Below, piece after piece: positions 2 to 21,377 of a stretch of DNA of 34,121 nt. The notes beneath the pieces were generated by a model. That model ran no database searches. It worked only from the letters and a program-made list of their open reading frames with translations, and was not told the origin of the DNA. Position numbers and translations under genes: made by a program. The first letter of the stretch is position 1. Each line of letters begins with the position of its first letter. Where the stretch lies: positions 1 through 34,121 of the forward strand of contig JAGVZL010000014.1 of NCBI GenBank assembly GCA_018302505.1, read 5' to 3'. The stretch is from Candidatus Woesearchaeota archaeon. Its GTDB lineage: Archaea > Nanobdellota > Nanobdellia > SCGC-AAA011-G17 > ARS1403.

Positions 2-1474
2 AGTAACAGCTCAGCTCTTTCAGTTCCGTGGCTCAATATAACTTCAGGAGGCACAGATGCTAAGTTCATCATAGACACAGCAGGCAACGTCGGCATCGGG
101 ACAACGGCACCTGTTGAAAAATTGATGATAACAATTGCAGATAGCGGAACTACATGGGCAAATTATGACGGTATTAGGATTTATAATACTGACACCACAA
201 CTAATGCAGGAGGTAGACTAGTTTTTAACTTAGGAGACTCTGGGACAGCTCAAGCTGGAATAGCTGGTGTAATCGTAGCTTCGTCAGATTCGGCTTTGGC
301 GTTTATTACAGAGGACTCAGATACAATTACAGAAAAAATGAGGATTACAGAAACAGGCAACGTCGGCATCGGCACGACGGATCCAGCAGATTTGTTAGTA
401 GTTCAAAACTCAAACAAGGCAAATATCTCGCTCGCCCCATCAGGCAATAATGCAATAATCCGTATGGATTATATTACTGGCAATGATGCAATTATTATGT
501 TCAGAGAAAATAGTATAGAAAAAGGGCGTATTGCATATGTTGGAGACACAAAAGAACTTCGATTGATTTCCTCTGAAGCGGAATCAATATTGACTCTCCA
601 TTCCAACAACACCGAAAGAATAAGAATTAATGCAGCGGGCAACGTCGGCATCGGCACGACGAGCCCAGGGGCTTTACTAGAAATTGTGGATGGAGATGTT
701 AATATAACAAATGGCACTGGCGATTGGGGAATGATTTTTGATGAAGCTACTGGATTTGTAGGTATGGGGTATAGTATAAATGATAATTGGGCTCAATTGA
801 ATGGACCTTTAAGCATTTTTGCTTCAGGAGATAATGGTTCTAGTGCTATAAGAATTCAAACTAATGATGCAACTGGTGAACATAGTGGAATTGGATTCTA
901 TACAGCTTCTCTTCCAGGACAATCTTTTCCACTAGGTTTAGTTGGTTTAGAAAAAACATCAGACACAGGCCAACATTCAGGGGATTTAGTATTCTATACA
1001 AGACCCGGCACAACTAATGTAGCTCCTATAGAAAGAATGAGAATAACTTCAGGAGGCGACATCTGCGACCCGGCAACTGACGCAGATTTATCAGACTGCG
1101 CTTCAGATGCAAGATTAAAAACAAACATTCAAGATTATCAATACGGCTTAAATGAAATCTTGCAACTAAGACCGGTAAATTTCAACTGGAACCAGAAAGC
1201 AGTTTCAGAGCTGAGCTACAATCCAAATTTAACAAACACAGGTCTAATAGCCCAGGAAGTAGAACAAATAATCCCGGAGTGGGTAGAAACAAAAGAAGAC
1301 GGCTATAAAAAAATCCCGGGCTCAGGAGATTTGGATTTAGTCTTGGTTAATGCCGTCAAGGAGCTCAACTCAAAAATCTCGGCACTGGAACAGCAGAATA
1401 ATGAACTCAAGGCTGAAATCTCAGCACTAAAAGAGCCTTCTTTAGAAAAGAACCCTCGGGAAAAAAAGAAATAA
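2..1474 (+). CDS. S74-peptidase/intramolecular-chaperone domain protein (tail-fibre/surface-fibre-like), 5' end outside window
   Basis: Reading frame is open from base 2 through the annotated ATG at 122. Repeated GNVGIGTTxP motifs, and a C-terminal S74-like segment DARLKTNIQDYQYGLNEILQLRPVNFNWN...TGLIAQEVEQIIPEWV followed by a coiled coil. Confidence 0.85.
   Translation, partial: SNSSALSVPWLNITSGGTDAKFIIDTAGNVGIGTTAPVEKLMITIADSGTTWANYDGIRIYNTDTTTNAGGRLVFNLGDSGTAQAGIAGVIVASSDSALAFITEDSDTITEKMRITETGNVGIGTTDPADLLVVQNSNKANISLAPSGNNAIIRMDYITGNDAIIMFRENSIEKGRIAYVGDTKELRLISSEAESILTLHSNNTERIRINAAGNVGIGTTSPGALLEIVDGDVNITNGTGDWGMIFDEATGFVGMGYSINDNWAQLNGPLSIFASGDNGSSAIRIQTNDATGEHSGIGFYTASLPGQSFPLGLVGLEKTSDTGQHSGDLVFYTRPGTTNVAPIERMRITSGGDICDPATDADLSDCASDARLKTNIQDYQYGLNEILQLRPVNFNWNQKAVSELSYNPNLTNTGLIAQEVEQIIPEWVETKEDGYKKIPGSGDLDLVLVNAVKELNSKISALEQQNNELKAEISALKEPSLEKNPREKKK
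83..106 (+). repeat. GNVGIG-encoding nucleotide repeat, copy 1
   Basis: ggcaacgtcggcatcgggacaacg; GC-rich against an AT-rich background. Confidence 0.8.
356..379 (+). repeat. GNVGIG-encoding nucleotide repeat, copy 2
   Basis: ggcaacgtcggcatcggcacgacg. Confidence 0.85.
638..661 (+). repeat. GNVGIG-encoding nucleotide repeat, copy 3
   Basis: ggcaacgtcggcatcggcacgacg, identical to copy 2. Confidence 0.85.
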
Positions 1475-1589
1475 CGTCGGTTCGGCACAGCAGCAAGCCC
1501 AAATACAGCAGCTAAGAAAGGAATTAGCAACCCATCTCAAACCCCATCATTCAGCCTCTCAAGTCCTAAACCCATCAAATTCTTAGTAA
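1473..1589 (+). pseudogene. Decayed S74-type C-terminal tail fragment
   Basis: aacgtcggttcggcac resembles the NVGIGT repeat and its first bases form the stop codon of the upstream gene. Open frame reads NVGSAQQQAQIQQLRKELATHLKPHHSASQVLNPSNS*. Confidence 0.5.
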
Positions 1590-1832
1590 CATCCATTACC
1601 TAAATTACTAGTAATCCTAATGACCTTTTTTAGTAGTATTCATGACCTAATTCCCTCACCTAGATCTCTCATTTTACCAAGAATTTTTCTAAAAGCTTAT
1701 TTTTTGAAAATAAATCTCCAACATTTTAACATCTATAAAACTCAACTATCAAATTATAATTTTAATTTAAGAAATTTAAAATTATTTAAGATAGTTTCTC
1801 AACAATGTAGTAATTAAAATGTCTAAAGATTT
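1536..1832 (+). repeat. Dispersed island repeat, copy A
   Basis: ctcaaaccccatcattcagcctctcaagtcctaaacccatcaaattcttag..., plus a distal part aaataaatctccaacatttt...aactatcaaattataattt...tttaagatagtttc...attaaaatgtct shared with copy B. Confidence 0.6.
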
Positions 1833-2172
1833 ATATAATTCAAAAACAAATAATAAAGAAATGATAGGGTATTCAATTTCTAGAAATAAAGTAAAAATCA
1901 GGCTTACAGAGGAAAGATGGTTCCATATAGTAGAATCTCATGATTATATGTCCGGTCTTAGCGAAGTTGTATTAGAGACAATTAATAATCCAGAAGAAAT
2001 TTTAGAAGGAATTAAAGACGAATTTATAGCAGTACAAAAGTTTAAAAGTAAGTATATCATAGTTATTTATAAAGAAGTCTCAAAAGAAGATGGGTTTGTA
2101 ATCACGGCATTTATAACTTCCAAAATAAATAAAGTAAAAAATAACAGGAAATCAATATGGAAAAAGCAATAA
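1819..2172 (+). CDS. Putative BECR-fold (barnase/EndoU/colicin E5-D/RelE-like) small nuclease or toxin-like protein
   Basis: 117 aa; RLTEERWFHIVESHDYM...VVLETINNPEEIL...FKSKYIIVIYKE...GFVITAFITSKINK resembles the phage-type BECR nuclease pattern. Overlaps the next ORF. Confidence 0.5.
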   Translation: MSKDLYNSKTNNKEMIGYSISRNKVKIRLTEERWFHIVESHDYMSGLSEVVLETINNPEEILEGIKDEFIAVQKFKSKYIIVIYKEVSKEDGFVITAFITSKINKVKNNRKSIWKKQ

Positions 2173-2384
2173 TAAAAAAAATAGAGCAATTGGCTCCAGA
2201 CATAATGAATATATCCCCACAAATGTGGATAGATTTTGATAGAGAAGCGGATGTTCTATATGTAAGTTTTGAGAAGCCGCAAAATGCTGATGATAGTGAA
2301 ATGGAAGGGGATGTTATAGTTCATAAGAGAAAAAACAAAATAGTTGGTTTGAGCCTATTACATGCAAGCAAATTTGCCTCTTAA
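2157..2384 (+). CDS. DUF2283 domain protein, likely partner of the upstream gene
   Basis: MWIDFDREADVLYVSFEKPQNADDSE...GDVIVHKRKNKIVGLSLLHASKF matches the DUF2283 pattern. Confidence 0.7.
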   Translation: MEKAIIKKIEQLAPDIMNISPQMWIDFDREADVLYVSFEKPQNADDSEMEGDVIVHKRKNKIVGLSLLHASKFAS

Positions 2385-2463
2385 TTTCTTAGTAATATTC
2401 ATGACCTAAAATACGTATTCTTTTACATAAATTCTTAAAAAATATGTTTCAAAAGATTAATCC

Positions 2464-2829
2464 ATGTAAGAAAAAATAATCTGTCCAGAGTGCAGTTCAA
2501 AATCAACTATCAGGAAAGGAATAAGAAAAAATCAGCAGCAAACTATTCAACAGTATAAATGTAAAAACTGCAGTAATATTTTTACCCAGCAGCCCATCTG
2601 CCCGCAGCACCCCGATGCCGAAATCTGCAATCAAAACTCAAGAATCCAGGCCCTGGAAGCTCAGGGAGCAAACTCCTCTCAAACCCCAAAATCCAGCCTC
2701 CTCAGCCCAAATCCCCACAAATTCTTAGCCAAATCAGGTTGGCAGATGGCTAGCCATTTTTGGTTGCTTTTATTAGCCAAATTCAGTGTTATTCCAAAAC
2801 CAATTTTACTATTAATCTTGGTGAAATAA
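2464..2829 (+). pseudogene. Decayed zinc-ribbon (transposase-type) ORF joined to an S74-like coiled-coil tail
   Basis: ATG followed at once by TAA, then EKIICPECSSKSTIRKGIRKNQQQTIQQYKCKNCSNIFTQQP, homologous to SCPNCSSTKIRKHGIKQQKQSSIQRYLCKNCKKTFT of the 3740 gene, then NSRIQALEAQGANSSQTPKSSLLSPNPHKFL. Confidence 0.65.
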
Positions 2830-3010: not shown

Positions 3011-3190
3011 ATGAAAGAAACTAAAAAACATCAAACCAAAAAATGGGAAATCTCCATTATGGAAATAGAGGATAAAGAAGGAAGAAAATACAAGGTAACA
3101 CGACGTCTTCCAGAAATGTCAGTGGCAGAAACAAAAATATTCTCTTCAAAAGAAAAAGCAATAATGCAATTTAACGATTGGCTAAAATAG
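3011..3190 (+). CDS. Hypothetical small protein (59 aa)
   Basis: MKETKKHQTKKWEISIMEIEDKEGRKYKVTRRLPEMSVAETKIFSSKEKAIMQFNDWLK*; convergent 20-nt overlap with the next gene. Confidence 0.5.
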   Translation: MKETKKHQTKKWEISIMEIEDKEGRKYKVTRRLPEMSVAETKIFSSKEKAIMQFNDWLK

Positions 3191-3503
3191 GCTCAGCTAT
3201 TTGCATCATTTTCTTATTTAATTCTTCAATAAGCCTAATATCCCCATAAGAATATATATCTCCTATATTCAAGGATAATATTCTCTTCTGCATATATAAT
3301 TTTGGGAATCTTTTGGCTATCTCACTTCTTTGATTATCATCCATAACTATAATTAAATCAGCCCATTCAATCTGCTTTTTGGAAACAGGCCTATTATTAA
3401 ACAAACCAGCTGATTTTGTCTTATATCTATTCCTAAATAACTCTTCAGCGGTCTTGCTCCTATTCTGATTTTGATTGCATATAAATAAAACTTTCATAAT
3501 CAA
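3171..3503 (-). CDS. Low-molecular-weight protein-tyrosine-phosphatase-like protein
   Basis: VLFICNQNQNRSKTAE contains the C-x5-R-S P-loop; ADLIIVMDDNQRSEI is typical of the family. Confidence 0.75.
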   Translation of the reverse strand: MIMKVLFICNQNQNRSKTAEELFRNRYKTKSAGLFNNRPVSKKQIEWADLIIVMDDNQRSEIAKRFPKLYMQKRILSLNIGDIYSYGDIRLIEELNKKMMQIAEPILANR

Positions 3504-3577
3504 TAATAAGAAAGATTTATATTTATACCTTTCGCAAGTTCATTACTAAAAACAATCCAACACATTAACCAAACACA

Positions 3578-3660
3578 TCCAAACCCCTTCATTCAGCCTC
3601 CCCAGCCCAAACCCATCATTTTTCCAGCCAAATCATGTTACAGTATGGCTAGCCAAACAG
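3578..3660 (+). repeat. Dispersed island repeat, copy C
   Basis: tccaaaccccttcattcagcctccccagcccaaacccatcatttttccagccaaatcatgttacagtatggctagcca; closely matches copies A and B. Confidence 0.6.
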
Positions 3661-3739
3661 TGTGTTTCTATCAGCCGTTTTGTGTTGTAATCATTACACT
3701 TCAACAGTATTTTTAAACCAATTTACAGCAAAATATTTC

Positions 3740-4768
3740 ATGTCAATAGAGATAAGCAATATATCTTGTCCAAACTGCTCATCAACTAAAATAAGAAAAC
3801 ATGGAATAAAGCAGCAAAAACAATCCAGCATTCAAAGATATTTATGCAAAAACTGCAAAAAAACATTCACATTAAAACAAGAGCTAAAGGGCAAATCATA
3901 CCCAACAAACATAATACTTAATTCAATCTCCTTATACAATCGACTTTACTCTCAGCCAGAAATAATAAAACTCATCAGTAAACAACATAAAATAAGAATC
4001 CCACAAAAAACAATCTCAAACTGGATCAATGAATTTTCCAAGATTACAACATTCCATAGATTAAGAGGTAAAGCAAAACAGCAATTCAAACCAGAAAACA
4101 TAATAGAACAGTATGAATTCCTGCACAACAACCTTAACTACAAATACCAAATACATAATTTCAAATTAGATTACTTAACAGCTAATGATGAAAAGCTGGA
4201 AAGAATCAAAACTTATCTAAAAAAAATCCTAACCAAAAATTTTCCTCATCATATCTTCAAATCAAATTACAAAATAGAAGAAAAATCAGACAGGGCATCA
4301 CAGACAAATTTTAAAATATTAAACATAAAACCGCTAAACAAGCAAAACTTAGCTAACAAATTAGCAAAACTAGCATTAAATTTGGCAAAAACAAATAAAG
4401 ACAGACATCAATCAATACAAAATTTCTTCATAACAAATGACTCAACAACAATAGCAGCAGAAATACCAATATATCTAACGCATGATGATTTGCTTTACTT
4501 CAGTTCAAGAGGCTTCATGTTAAATCCAAATGGCTTCTCAACACCGATAACCGGACATATAGATATTTTACAGATAAGAAACAACTTAATCCACATCCTA
4601 GATTACAAACCTAATGCTAACAAAGAAAATCCAATTCACCAACTGACAATTTACGCTCTAGCAATAGCCTCCAAAACAAAGCTTCCATTAATAATGTTCA
4701 AATGCTCATGGTTTGATGAAAATAATTATTATGAGTTCTTCCCGCTGCATGTAGTTTACAAAAGATAG
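3740..4768 (+). CDS. Zinc-ribbon/HTH (transposase-type DNA-binding) fused to C-terminal PD-(D/E)XK nuclease
   Basis: ORF track starts at 3662 but the in-frame ATG at 3740 (MSIEISNISCPNCSSTKIRKHG...QRYLCKNCKKTF) fits better. C-terminus AAEIPIYL...TGHIDILQIRNNLIHILDYKPN...HQLTIYALAI has the E...GxxD...DYK...QLxxYA pattern. Confidence 0.7.
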   Translation: MSIEISNISCPNCSSTKIRKHGIKQQKQSSIQRYLCKNCKKTFTLKQELKGKSYPTNIILNSISLYNRLYSQPEIIKLISKQHKIRIPQKTISNWINEFSKITTFHRLRGKAKQQFKPENIIEQYEFLHNNLNYKYQIHNFKLDYLTANDEKLERIKTYLKKILTKNFPHHIFKSNYKIEEKSDRASQTNFKILNIKPLNKQNLANKLAKLALNLAKTNKDRHQSIQNFFITNDSTTIAAEIPIYLTHDDLLYFSSRGFMLNPNGFSTPITGHIDILQIRNNLIHILDYKPNANKENPIHQLTIYALAIASKTKLPLIMFKCSWFDENNYYEFFPLHVVYKR

Positions 4769-4806: not shown

Positions 4807-5310
4807 ATGATAGCAACAGATAGTTCATCATTAATATTGTTGGCAAAACTTAGTATTTTAGACAAATTCCTGCAGAATCTAAAAACAAAATTGGTTATCA
4901 CCCCTGAAGTAGAAACAGAATGTATATTGAAAGACTCATTTGATGCAAAATTAATCAAAAAAAGAATAGAAGAAAAGATAATAAGTAAGAAAATAATAAA
5001 TAATAGAAATATGTGCAACAAAATAATAGCAGATTTCAATATTGGAAAGGGAGAAGCTGAAACAATTACCTTATGTTTAGAAAATAAATTGGATATTATA
5101 ATAGATGACAAAAAAGCAATCAACGCATGTAAAGTGCTTAAAATAAAATTCACAACAATACCAAATATATTAGTAGAAATGTGCAGAAAAAATATAATAG
5201 CAAAATCACAAACAGAAACATATGCCATAAAACTTGAGGGGATAGGAAGATACAAAAAAGAAATAATGGAAAGAATAAAGGGGGATATTAAAAATGACAA
5301 GAATGAATAA
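4807..5310 (+). CDS. PIN-domain ribonuclease, toxin-like
   Basis: MIATDSSSLILLAKL...VETEC...NIGKGEAETITLCLENKLDIIIDDKKAINACKVL; conserved acidic residues in order. Confidence 0.8.
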   Translation: MIATDSSSLILLAKLSILDKFLQNLKTKLVITPEVETECILKDSFDAKLIKKRIEEKIISKKIINNRNMCNKIIADFNIGKGEAETITLCLENKLDIIIDDKKAINACKVLKIKFTTIPNILVEMCRKNIIAKSQTETYAIKLEGIGRYKKEIMERIKGDIKNDKNE

Positions 5311-5599
5311 TACAATGACAATAAGGCTGCCGAGAAAAGATATTGAAATAGTGAAACAAATATCAATAGAAAACAAAAAAGACAAATCAACAATAGTGAG
5401 AGAATTAATAGAACAGGGAAAAGTGTATTTTGCAATAAAAGAGTACAAAGACGGAAAAATAAGTATAGGAAAGGCATCAGAAATAGCAGGTTTAACAATA
5501 TCTGAAATGATGGATGTACTTGCCAATCTAGGAATAAAAAATAATATAGAACTAGAAGATTATTTTGAAGGCTATGGCTCATTAAAAAATATGTTTTGA
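5294..5599 (+). CDS. UPF0175-like antitoxin with N-terminal ribbon-helix-helix
   Basis: MTIRLPRKDIEIVKQISIENKKDKSTIVRELIEQG...YKDGKISIGKASEIAGLTISEMMDVLANLGI; overlaps the PIN gene. Confidence 0.7.
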   Translation: MTRMNNTMTIRLPRKDIEIVKQISIENKKDKSTIVRELIEQGKVYFAIKEYKDGKISIGKASEIAGLTISEMMDVLANLGIKNNIELEDYFEGYGSLKNMF

Positions 5600-5606
5600 G
5601 AATCGC

Positions 5607-5633
5607 AATGTCGGCATCGGAGATGCTGGAGTA
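5607..5633 (+). pseudogene. Relic of S74-protein NVGIG repeat
   Basis: aatgtcggcatcggagatgctggagta (NVGIGDAGV); 13 of 14 bases match aacgtcggcatcgg of the 5' gene. Confidence 0.5.
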
Positions 5634-5676: not shown

Positions 5677-5751
5677 GGGGTTGTAGTGTAACTTGGTTTA
5701 TCATTCGAGGTTTGGGACCTCGCGATCTCGGTTCAAATCCGGGCAGCCCCA
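5677..5751 (+). tRNA. tRNA-Pro(TGG)
   Basis: Acceptor GGGGTTG/CAGCCCC, anticodon arm CGAGG-TTTGGGA-CCTCG, T arm CTCGG-TTCAAAT-CCGGG. Confidence 0.9.
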
Positions 5752-18454: not shown

Positions 18455-18918
18455 TTATCAAAAAAAATTCTTGAAGGTGAAGATTTATGTTGTCTGGAAT
18501 GTTTTTCTACAGACCTAATCATAAGTTCTAAAAGATAATCTCTATGGGTAAGTTCACATCTTATAATGTCCTCAAAATTATCTACTTCTCTACCCCTAAT
18601 CGCATCATTAACCTCTTTCCTTTTTAGTAGCAATGATTTAGAGATTAAATCCCAATCTTGAACGTTGTATAATTGTAAAATAAAACAAGTGTATCCATTA
18701 TAAGGTACAACCCTCGCCATATTAAAAGCAAATTCTCTTATAGGATCGCTGGTATCATCGGCAACATAATCAAAGATTGCCCTTTCACGCAAATAATCAT
18801 AAGAATCTGTAAGTCTCTCAATATCATTACTCCCCGTAGCGAGCGCATGTGGATGAGCCAAAGCAAGTATTGCATGAGGCATATAAATTTCATCTATAAC
18901 AGGTTTTAAGTAACTCAT
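18451..18918 (-). CDS. Hypothetical protein, overlapping the end of tfb
   Basis: 155 aa ORF; 4-nt overlap with the TFB stop; no family recognised. Confidence 0.55.
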   Translation of the reverse strand: MSYLKPVIDEIYMPHAILALAHPHALATGSNDIERLTDSYDYLRERAIFDYVADDTSDPIREFAFNMARVVPYNGYTCFILQLYNVQDWDLISKSLLLKRKEVNDAIRGREVDNFEDIIRCELTHRDYLLELMIRSVEKHSRQHKSSPSRIFFDN

Positions 18919-21377
18919 TTTCTTTTCTTCTTTACTTTCTCATCTAATTTTAATTTCTTCAAAAGTTCTTTGTATCTATTTCTAATAGTAACTTCAGTCA
19001 CACCAGCAACATCCGCAACTTCCCTTTGGGTTCTTTTCTCATTATTTATTAAAGCAGCTACATATAAAGAAGCAGCAGCAATCCCAGTTGGACCTCTTCC
19101 TGAAGTTAATTCTGAATTCTGAGCTTTCTCTAATATTTCAACAGCCTTAGTTTGAGTATCTGCGCTTAATTTCAAAGAAGTTGCAAATCTGGCAATATAA
19201 TCCACAGGATTGCTAGGTAAAATCCTAATTCCTAATTCTCTTGTAATAAACCTATAGGTTCTTCCAATTTCTTTCTTATCAATACCACTAGCTTCACTTA
19301 ATTCATCCAAAGTTCTTGGAACTTCATGTCTCCTGCATGCGGCATATAATGCTCCAGCTACAACAGATTCCATTGACCTCCCTCTAACTAATCCTCTTTG
19401 AACAGCTAAAGTATAAATTCTAGCGGATTCTTCTTCAACAGCTTTTGTTAATTTTAAATAGCTGGAAACTCTTTTTAATTCAGCTAAAGCTAATTTTAAA
19501 TTTCTCTCAATAGCAGTTGAAATTCTATATTGCCATTTTCTTAATCTGAAGAATCTATTTCTGTCTTTTCCGCCTAATTGATAAATATCAGATTTTCTTC
19601 CAACATCAGTTCCTAATCCTCTATCATATTTAGTGTTGTGCAAAAATATTCCGCCCATTCCTCCGACAAAATTTTCATATCCAGGAACAGTTAAGTCATA
19701 AGCGTATCCAGTGCTTGATTTCATTTTTTTAATGCCTCTAACTCTCAAATATAGAAATGGCGCTTTAGCGATTTTCATTAATTTTTCATCACCATACTTT
19801 TCAGCTATTTTCAAAGCAGATTTCCTATCGATCCTTATCCTATCTCTAAATTTCCATTCTTTCTTATATATCTGCGGAGCAGGTATTAATGTCTCAATAG
19901 CTCCCTTGCCTTTAACCTCGCTTGGTTTATCTTTCAAAAAACCAAGATCATATGCGGTATCGGGATTCTTAATCAAAGCCCTCTTAGAAACAGTATCAGA
20001 AATTCTCTGCCCAGTTTTTTCCATAACTCTTCCCTTAATAAATGCTTCTTGGTAGTTTGCATGCATCCCAAGCTGTGAATATAATAATATGAAATCATTA
20101 GTCAAATCCCCGCTGGCAGAATTAGTTGAAATGCAAACATCAGGTCTAAATCCTTCATGCTCTATAATCACTTTGCCGCCATCTCCATCCAGATAAGCCA
20201 TTAAAAATTCTTTTTTAAATTCCATAGGAACTGAATAAATTATTTCTGGAATTCTCTTTGTTATAGCATTAGAACCTGTTTTTAAAATATCTCTGAATAG
20301 AATACTTAAAAGCTTGCTGTTAAACTGTATCTGTGTAGCTGAAGTGTTTTTTGCATAAACATTGTCGCTAACTTTAAATAAATTTTTGGTTATCCTTCTG
20401 ATTTCATCAATATATTCAACTTCGTGGCTTCCAAAGGAGAATACTAAATGATTATCTCTAGCAGTGCCCTCTGCTATAAACAAACCTAGAAGTCTAATAA
20501 AATCTTTATCAATGTTAATTTTTAGAGGCAACTCAGATTTTCCGCTATAAATGCCTATTTTGCAGTTATTTAAATTGTAATCATATATATTTATTTGTCT
20601 GGAAAACTCATTAAGTACCCATAAAGGAATAGTTTTGTAATGTCTCCAACTTTTGATTCTGCCTTTTAAAATATCATTGCTATTTTCTAGCAATTTCAGT
20701 TTCTCAAAGAGTTTTTCATCTGAAAAATTCCTTAAATATAATAATGGATATTTTTTTCCTAAAATTATAAACTCATCCAATAAATTTAATTCCCTAATAT
20801 CTTCAATTGTGGGTATCTCTTTTGGAGCAACAATAAAATCTCCTTCCTTTAGTTCACTTACTCTAACCGGCTTTATTTCCTTATCGGCGCTAAATACACT
20901 GTGATTTCCGGTAACCTTGACTTTTTTTCCAGTCTCCAGTAAAATTTCAAATACTTCATCAGCAGGATGTCTAGAAACTTCGCTTATTTTTCTAAATTTA
21001 ATTTCATTATTTTTATCAAAGGCAACACATTCAAAATCTTCAACAGGAGCGTATTCAATATCCTCATCAATTCTAATAAAACTATTTCTCTCAGCTAATA
21101 TATCATCAACAAATTTTCCAATTTTAACAATACTAATCTTATTATTCCTCTTAATCACAATAGGCTCTTCTGCATCTACACTATAGGTCATAGGACTTCC
21201 TGTCCTTCTTCTAGAAGCAGCTTGCTCATGGTCAAATTCTCTCCATTCCTGACCGAAGTCTATCATCTTCTCTTCGATAACTAAACCGCAATCCTTACAT
21301 ACTATCTCACCCCTGTCTTTGTTCAGTAAAAGATTGATACTTCCACAATCCGGGCACTTTTTGACGTATGTCGGCAT
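18915..21377 (-). CDS. tfb: Transcription initiation factor B (TFB) precursor with intein
   Basis: N-term CPDCGSINLLLNKDRGEIVCKDCGLVIEEKMIDFGQEWREFDHEQAASRRRTGSPMTY and C-term TFB cyclin repeats flank an intein. Confidence 0.95.
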   Translation of the reverse strand: MPTYVKKCPDCGSINLLLNKDRGEIVCKDCGLVIEEKMIDFGQEWREFDHEQAASRRRTGSPMTYSVDAEEPIVIKRNNKISIVKIGKFVDDILAERNSFIRIDEDIEYAPVEDFECVAFDKNNEIKFRKISEVSRHPADEVFEILLETGKKVKVTGNHSVFSADKEIKPVRVSELKEGDFIVAPKEIPTIEDIRELNLLDEFIILGKKYPLLYLRNFSDEKLFEKLKLLENSNDILKGRIKSWRHYKTIPLWVLNEFSRQINIYDYNLNNCKIGIYSGKSELPLKINIDKDFIRLLGLFIAEGTARDNHLVFSFGSHEVEYIDEIRRITKNLFKVSDNVYAKNTSATQIQFNSKLLSILFRDILKTGSNAITKRIPEIIYSVPMEFKKEFLMAYLDGDGGKVIIEHEGFRPDVCISTNSASGDLTNDFILLYSQLGMHANYQEAFIKGRVMEKTGQRISDTVSKRALIKNPDTAYDLGFLKDKPSEVKGKGAIETLIPAPQIYKKEWKFRDRIRIDRKSALKIAEKYGDEKLMKIAKAPFLYLRVRGIKKMKSSTGYAYDLTVPGYENFVGGMGGIFLHNTKYDRGLGTDVGRKSDIYQLGGKDRNRFFRLRKWQYRISTAIERNLKLALAELKRVSSYLKLTKAVEEESARIYTLAVQRGLVRGRSMESVVAGALYAACRRHEVPRTLDELSEASGIDKKEIGRTYRFITRELGIRILPSNPVDYIARFATSLKLSADTQTKAVEILEKAQNSELTSGRGPTGIAAASLYVAALINNEKRTQREVADVAGVTEVTIRNRYKELLKKLKLDEKVKKKRK
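19635..21182 (-). mobile_element. TFB intein (516 aa) with LAGLIDADG/DOD homing endonuclease
   Basis: Begins SVDAEEPIVI after ...SPMTY; TGNHSVF block B; LLGLFIAEG and LMAYLDGDGG endonuclease motifs; AYDLTVPGYENFVGGMGGIFLHN|T. Confidence 0.93.

Follow-up and report, generated by a model that had tools for sequence, protein, structure and literature searches.

Homing and fractured genes are both known. In the fractured gene of a 2009 study, a host gene is reportedly split by intein halves with a free-standing endonuclease gene lying between them, and I-Ssp6803I is a homing endonuclease of the PD-(D/E)XK type. Free-standing homing endonucleases of phages sit beside their presumed target genes in patchily distributed, mobile islands, with several selfish genes per site (PMC10448857). 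The stretch analysed here, hereafter the window, comprises the 34,121 nucleotides (nt) of contig JAGVZL010000014.1 (assembly GCA_018302505.1) of a Candidatus Woesearchaeota archaeon, and carries an open reading frame (ORF) at 3740..4768 (plus strand, as are all window features below unless stated otherwise) for a predicted nuclease of 342 amino acids (aa), in which a zinc ribbon, a helix-turn-helix (HTH) segment and a RecB/Cas4-like PD-(D/E)XK domain follow one another. We think it reasonably probable, though well short of certain, that this gene and its relatives form a new family of free-standing homing-type endonucleases, belonging to a mobile island that carries toxin–antitoxin (TA) genes and parasitizes one surface gene.

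Comparison with described systems revealed both likenesses and differences. At 11 loci of Candidate Phyla Radiation (CPR) bacteria the fractured-gene arrangement recurs, with two ORFs that end and start with intein halves and a free-standing endonuclease gene between them. The nuclease, however, is of a different family, combining an IS1-type zinc ribbon and HTH with a RecB/Cas4-like core; the host gene encodes a surface fibre, the genomes are those of cellular CPR bacteria, TA and four-helix-bundle genes are added, and the islands of DPANN archaea lack the intein. I-Ssp6803I-type enzymes are comparable in using a PD-(D/E)XK catalytic fold for homing (a likeness of fold, not of compared sequence), but the nuclease here has a fused DNA-binding head and a RecB-like Q-x3-Y motif. 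As in phage islands of homing endonuclease genes, the nuclease gene adjoins its presumed target, is patchy and mobile, and shares a site crowded with several selfish genes, whereas here the hosts are cellular, one surface gene recurs, the cargo consists of TA genes and the cassettes are delimited by repeats. Integron arrays likewise consist of cassettes, mostly TA in the present case, that are split by repeats and adjoined by a DNA enzyme; no tyrosine integrase was seen among the recurrent neighbours at these loci, and the repeats are the 3′ ends of the surface and nuclease genes. No description of the nuclease family, its host gene, its TA cargo or the cross-domain DNA motif discussed below was found in the open-licence papers searched.

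Profile searches identified an IS1/IS1595-type zinc ribbon at aa 7–45 (3758..3874), above the cut-offs of both NF050000 (IS1_IS1595_Zn; 37.4 bits, cut-off 28) and PF03811 (27.3 bits, cut-off 26.1), followed by an HTH-like helical segment at aa 56–98 (3905..4033) comprising AlphaFold2 helices at 56–67, 72–83 and 89–98, with a weak IS6-type match across aa 50–104. Only the N-terminal positions 1–109 of the 199 in the IS1 transposase model NF033558 were matched, indicating that a DDE/DEDD core is absent; judged by profiles, the protein therefore resembles IS1/IS1595 transposases in its N-terminal ribbon and not in a DDE-type core. The predicted PD-(D/E)XK core occupies aa 204–339 (4349..4756), with E241, D275, D288-x-K290, Q301 and Y305 as its signature residues. 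This half of the protein scored 20.6 bits against PF12705, slightly below the cut-off of 22, while a single-domain homologue from the same genome exceeded it (25.0 bits). Residues C10, C13, C36 and C39, together with H223, E241, D275, D288, K290, Q301 and Y305, were invariant in 37 homologue sequences, and the AlphaFold2 model generated with these homologues (pLDDT 90.3, pTM 0.81) displayed a PD-(D/E)XK fold, its top Protein Data Bank matches being the AddAB nuclease domain and Cas4 SSO0001 (probability 0.91–0.94, E 0.03–0.06, weak by E-value alone). The predicted nuclease assignment, weak from the window protein alone, is thus firm once relatives are included, and the E...D...D/E-x-K...Q-x3-Y residues with the modelled restriction-type fold place the domain among RecB/Cas4-like PD-(D/E)XK nucleases. 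The composition of a zinc ribbon with a PD-(D/E)XK domain in 3740–4768 is well beyond chance. A transposase-type DNA-binding head on a PD-(D/E)XK nuclease, with no DDE/DEDD core after the ribbon, is what an earlier note on this DNA had claimed, and profiles, conservation and structure prediction all bear this out. A solved relative sought by sequence was rejected, as matches were mostly to zinc-ribbon or zinc-finger proteins.

A scan of GTDB genomes recovered at least 130 relatives with exactly this architecture in CPR bacteria, DPANN archaea and a few other phyla, showing that the earlier idea of a new one-off fusion was wrong. The best 80 relatives (L052–L131) belonged to Woesearchaeota, Nanoarchaeota, Aenigmatarchaeota, Omnitrophota, many CPR phyla and single genomes of Chloroflexota and Planctomycetota; locus counts below refer to 81 loci. 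Carriage was patchy: the full-length fusion was present in about nine of the 99 genomes of the window's order, and in one CPR class the nuclease was found in 21 of 286 genomes, while in G005 it persists as a pseudogene carrying stops. The nuclease tree intermixes phyla, and approximately unbiased tests rejected trees in which four nucleases from a single archaeal family form one clade (p 7e-30), and likewise trees uniting the archaeal nucleases (p 1.5e-38). On these sequence comparisons the tree rejects vertical descent, and the gene is horizontally moving and patchy, with the decaying distribution expected of a free-standing homing endonuclease. A viral origin was considered and rejected, since viral contigs gave one weak partial match. 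In most of the 99 order genomes a homologue of the catalytic half occurs as a separate single-domain gene, usually in one copy; the RecB/Cas4-like representative at G000:C27:23528-24142 is 37% identical over the catalytic half of the window nuclease but has neither zinc ribbon nor HTH. Such single-domain proteins are about 220 aa long (this one being L004; others L018–L038) and 31–39% identical to the catalytic half.

The dominant neighbour of the nuclease was a VGIG-repeat/peptidase-S74 gene, present at 57 of the 81 loci by neighbour clustering and at 45 by a stricter count, in which several contigs end too early. In the window this gene lies upstream of the nuclease, at the common address (122..1474, its left part cut by the contig end), and encodes a surface fibre with GNVGIGTT repeats, a peptidase-S74 chaperone domain (PF13884, 58.0 bits) and a coiled coil at its end. 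Homing endonuclease genes lie in or adjoin one target gene, as the nuclease does at these loci. A small four-helix-bundle-type protein was the second recurrent neighbour (52 loci), in CPR usually encoded directly downstream of the nuclease. Its main subfamily had no match to Pfam or NCBIfam models, and a second, related subfamily matched PF05635 and TIGR02436; this domain has also been described in insertion sequences of the rRNA genes of CPR (PMC11270868). The protein is not specific to the nuclease, as it also follows VGIG genes without one: at L132, L133, L135, L140 and L146 its genes adjoin giant nuclease-less VGIG genes, so the pairing of VGIG and four-helix-bundle genes is wider than the nuclease. 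GC-rich palindromic repeats that recall Rickettsia palindromic elements were also seen within four-helix-bundle and nuclease reading frames of CPR (L124:1760-1834 and 1991-2065; L115:1789-1838 and 4158-4207; L111:6931-6970).

Recurrent neighbours at the 81 loci included no TnsB-type DDE transposase, no integrase and no recognized reverse transcriptase of the sort that adjoins an Avd-like four-helix-bundle protein in diversity-generating retroelements, the last without a dedicated search for reverse transcriptases or template/variable repeats (TR/VR). Nor did transposon ends recur at the loci. The lack of a TnsB-type neighbour bears on a further role listed in the earlier note, that of a TnsA-like strand-cleaving transposon part, or else a derived IS1-type transposase. 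The IS1/IS1595 ribbon and a fold that TnsA is known to share would suit such a role, but we regard it as highly improbable, given that a DDE partner does not recur, that terminal inverted repeats were not evident around the window nuclease, and that the repeats on both sides derive from the 3′ ends of genes rather than from the ends of a transposon. A defence nuclease had also been suggested; it would be a restriction-like enzyme within a defence and TA island, recognizing the fibre genes of phages or competitors. The TA neighbours agree with this, as does a weak PADLOC match of one CPR member to a Cas4-like nuclease (20.1 bits). We nevertheless judge it very unlikely: the window protein (P0001) had no PADLOC match at E 0.01, the linkage is to the host's own S74 gene, and the split intein described next would be left unexplained.

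Profiles built from four loci were used to search all 81 for intein halves. At 11 loci, all CPR, an intein N-half, the nuclease and an intein C-half occurred in order on one strand, with the halves on separate ORFs flanking the nuclease, and five further loci carried one half. At L097, for example, a surface ORF closes with the N-half, the nuclease and a four-helix-bundle gene follow, and the next ORF opens with a C-half ending HN|T. The identity of the halves was confirmed by matches to TIGR01445 (27.6 bits, cut-off 24.5), TIGR01443 (37.5 and 35.3 bits, cut-off 15.6) and PF14890 (38.1 and 39.5 bits, cut-off 35.8). In the nuclease-less surface genes L135, L139 and L142 both halves are present, unbroken and just 262–685 nt apart, indicating that the nuclease block occupies the intein's usual endonuclease place. 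The insertion point in several loci is the end of a repeat of the form GNVGIGTTxPxxKLHVEG, the next VGIG unit beginning directly past HN|TY, and uninterrupted repeats of this form occur elsewhere; other insertions lie where the coiled coil behind the S74 domain ends, and it is a similar coiled coil that is repeated in the left repeats of the archaea described below. In some loci PemK and NYN toxins also occupy the intein gap. The fractured state changed eight times on the nuclease tree, indicating that it was repeatedly gained or lost. At the window locus (3740–4768) itself, no intein half was found beside the nuclease. In L101 (508-846) and L108 (68-454) we additionally observed that an insert divides the profile match of the intein N-half in two.

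In the DPANN loci the islands are organized as arrays, with copies of the S74 3′ end bounding TA cassettes on the left and, in relatives, copies of the nuclease 3′ end bounding them on the right. The island repeats that the earlier note had expected around the gene do exist: three S74 3′-end copies were identified in the window (1529..1615, 2671..2756 and, directly upstream of the nuclease, 3570..3655), each followed by iteron-like repeats of two three-fold variants, TAGCCA-N5-GGTTG and TAGTAAT-N3-CATGACC (1579-1655, 2725-2780 and 3625-3700; also in the spacers of L039). These repeats come after the S74 3′-end copies and before the nuclease, and may possibly be binding sites of its zinc ribbon and HTH. 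Iteron-like repeats, up to three per spacer, were rejected as universal element ends, being confined to G000 and one instance in G022. The left repeats of the window separate two contents. One is a toxin-like protein (1819..2172; weak PBECR2 match, PF18810 22.0 bits, below the cut-off of 27.1) with a DUF2283 protein as its possible antitoxin partner (2157..2384; PF10049, 41.2 bits). The other is the remnant of a second nuclease copy (2390..2594), comprising an upstream iteron and zinc-ribbon 5′ end followed by an S74 3′-end copy; it shares 78% identity over 207 nt with the 5′ end of the nuclease gene in G022, alongside a 45% match at the aa level. Downstream of the intact nuclease are a PIN-like toxin candidate (4807..5310; PADLOC PDC-S70 54 bits, no Pfam match) and a UPF0175-like antitoxin candidate overlapping it by 17 nt (5294..5599), whose G022 counterpart at the equivalent position is above the PF03683 cut-off; a tRNA-Pro(tgg) gene (5677..5751) marks the right flank. 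A small ORF within the array on the minus strand (3171-3503; MKVLFICNQNQNRSKTAEELF) has the look of a low-molecular-weight phosphatase. A second array of the same genome, L039, consists of five S74-type spacers, a PIN-like gene, HEPN/MNT pairs and other small genes, and then a nuclease 3′ fragment.

Copies of the last 60–250 nt of the nuclease gene were found behind TA genes in G001, G004, G019 and G022, in most cases with the cargo stop codon falling about 16 nt or less from the copy. Between G001 and G004, a unit of AbiEii and AbiEi bounded by such copies shows 86% identity over 1690 nt, against 67% for the nuclease bodies, indicating that cassettes move apart from the nuclease. Islands rich in TA genes and cassettes that move without the nuclease body would suit a passenger, whereby the nuclease is one further selfish or toxic gene in islands moved by ordinary homologous recombination and plays no part in the movement. 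This is quite unlikely in our estimation, because the nuclease is constant where the cargo varies, holds the place of a homing endonuclease inside inteins, and supplies from its own end the repeat that delimits cassettes. Occupancy of the tRNA-Pro/L37Ae site also varies: it is occupied in G000, G003 and G004, whereas G001, G002, G005 and G006 have neither island nor nuclease there and carry ribosomal and other housekeeping genes upstream.

Of the 229 stretches that code for the fibre-repeat peptide GN[VIL]GIGT at nuclease loci, 173 carry exactly the same 17-nt motif, GGCAACGTCGGCATCGG (in DPANN 20 of 28), where codon use in these genes would predict 0.27%. To judge from these sequences, the motif is conserved across both domains at the DNA level. 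In the window, the conserved motif, as AACGTCGGCATCGG, occurs exactly at 86..99, 359-372 and 641-654, and a copy with one mismatch lies outside any S74 gene directly past the last cargo stop codon (5607..5620), which we propose as the right island border; copies outside S74 genes and directly past cargo stop codons also occur in L056, L065 and L087. The motif lies on the nuclease strand in nearly all loci. In CPR it was present in 15 of 21 nuclease genomes and 80 of 265 nuclease-less genomes (p 2.3e-4). Most archaeal relatives lack it; it was found in five of 11 with the nuclease or a remnant vs two of 88 others, a grouping drawn up after both lists had been seen. Dependence of the motif on the nuclease was rejected on the count of nuclease-less CPR genomes carrying it, and a genome-wide DNA-uptake signal was rejected as the motif clusters in S74 genes and islands.

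The excess of exact motif copies, their shared strand with the nuclease, their position at island and cassette borders and their association with the nuclease (p 2.3e-4 and 1.2e-4) could instead mark a repeat-shuffling enzyme. Such an enzyme would cut the motif in VGIG repeats and so promote repeat recombination and antigenic-type fibre variation, with TA cassettes hopping between motif or end repeats. We hold this to be rather unlikely: many nuclease-less CPR genomes keep the motif, many intact copies would be cut simultaneously, and the placement in split inteins is left unexplained. Another reading, an integrase-free recombination platform in two domains, would join a site-reading nuclease and the conserved fibre-repeat motif to cassettes of fibre modules, split inteins and TA pairs, and we consider it unlikely, if worth bearing in mind. 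That its cassettes would be bounded by the motif or by nuclease and S74 gene ends, and that genes and surface modules would thereby pass between very distant microbes, is a proposal we advance with equal reserve.

A homing endonuclease that spreads by cutting an unoccupied surface gene fits the recurrence of that gene, the placement in inteins, the pseudogene and the transfer across domains. Among the roles listed in the earlier note, it is also the one favoured by the wider evidence. Of that note the domain reading and the homing option have stood, while the one-off fusion and the TnsA-like role have not and defence retains little support; it was blind to the constant surface gene, to the split intein and four-helix-bundle partner of relatives, and to the origin of the cassette spacers. 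Under the homing reading, the zinc ribbon and HTH would recognize a site within VGIG/S74 surface-fibre genes, the PD-(D/E)XK domain would cut that site in an unoccupied gene, and repair by recombination with an island-bearing copy would insert the island with its nuclease and TA cargo. There would be two routes by which the surface gene survives. In part of the CPR bacteria the island lies between split-intein halves, and the surface protein would be rebuilt by trans-splicing. In DPANN archaea, including the window, it lies behind the S74 domain and would bring a replacement 3′ end of the surface gene. Repeated invasions may have left fossils, S74 3′ ends on the left and nuclease 3′ ends on the right, each marking a TA cassette, and such layered growth would explain why the left and right spacers differ in this way; the TA genes presumably ride along and penalize loss of the island.

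Several observations weigh against this interpretation. No intein half lies beside the nuclease in 65 of the 81 loci, the window included; the intein is thus dispensable, and the DPANN model depends on the repeats. Nuclease genomes retain up to 34 intact motif copies, at which a host would cut itself were the motif the cut site, and 80 CPR genomes have the motif without the nuclease. With so many intact copies kept in nuclease genomes, and with many CPR genomes carrying motif and surface gene but no nuclease, the motif by itself is probably not the cut site. Nuclease-free inteins with contiguous halves, and repeats free of any insertion, were found, none as a same-species pair; no clean same-species pair of empty and occupied alleles was recovered, and at one site the nearest relative's contig ends at the would-be island.

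Elsewhere in the window, a transcription factor B gene (18915-21377, minus strand) is interrupted by an intein of an ordinary archaeal kind, in which LAGLIDADG-like motifs (LLGLFIAEGTA, FLMAYLDGDG) can be recognized.

If the homing interpretation is correct, a family of homing endonucleases has been gained that bears a borrowed transposase head, split-intein fractured genes occur in CPR surface proteins, and homing islands carry TA modules. The target would be a surface fibre in microbes believed to live on other cells, so that the finding would bear on gene exchange and surface variation in CPR and DPANN, with the cross-domain DNA motif as a directly testable candidate signal of the exchange.
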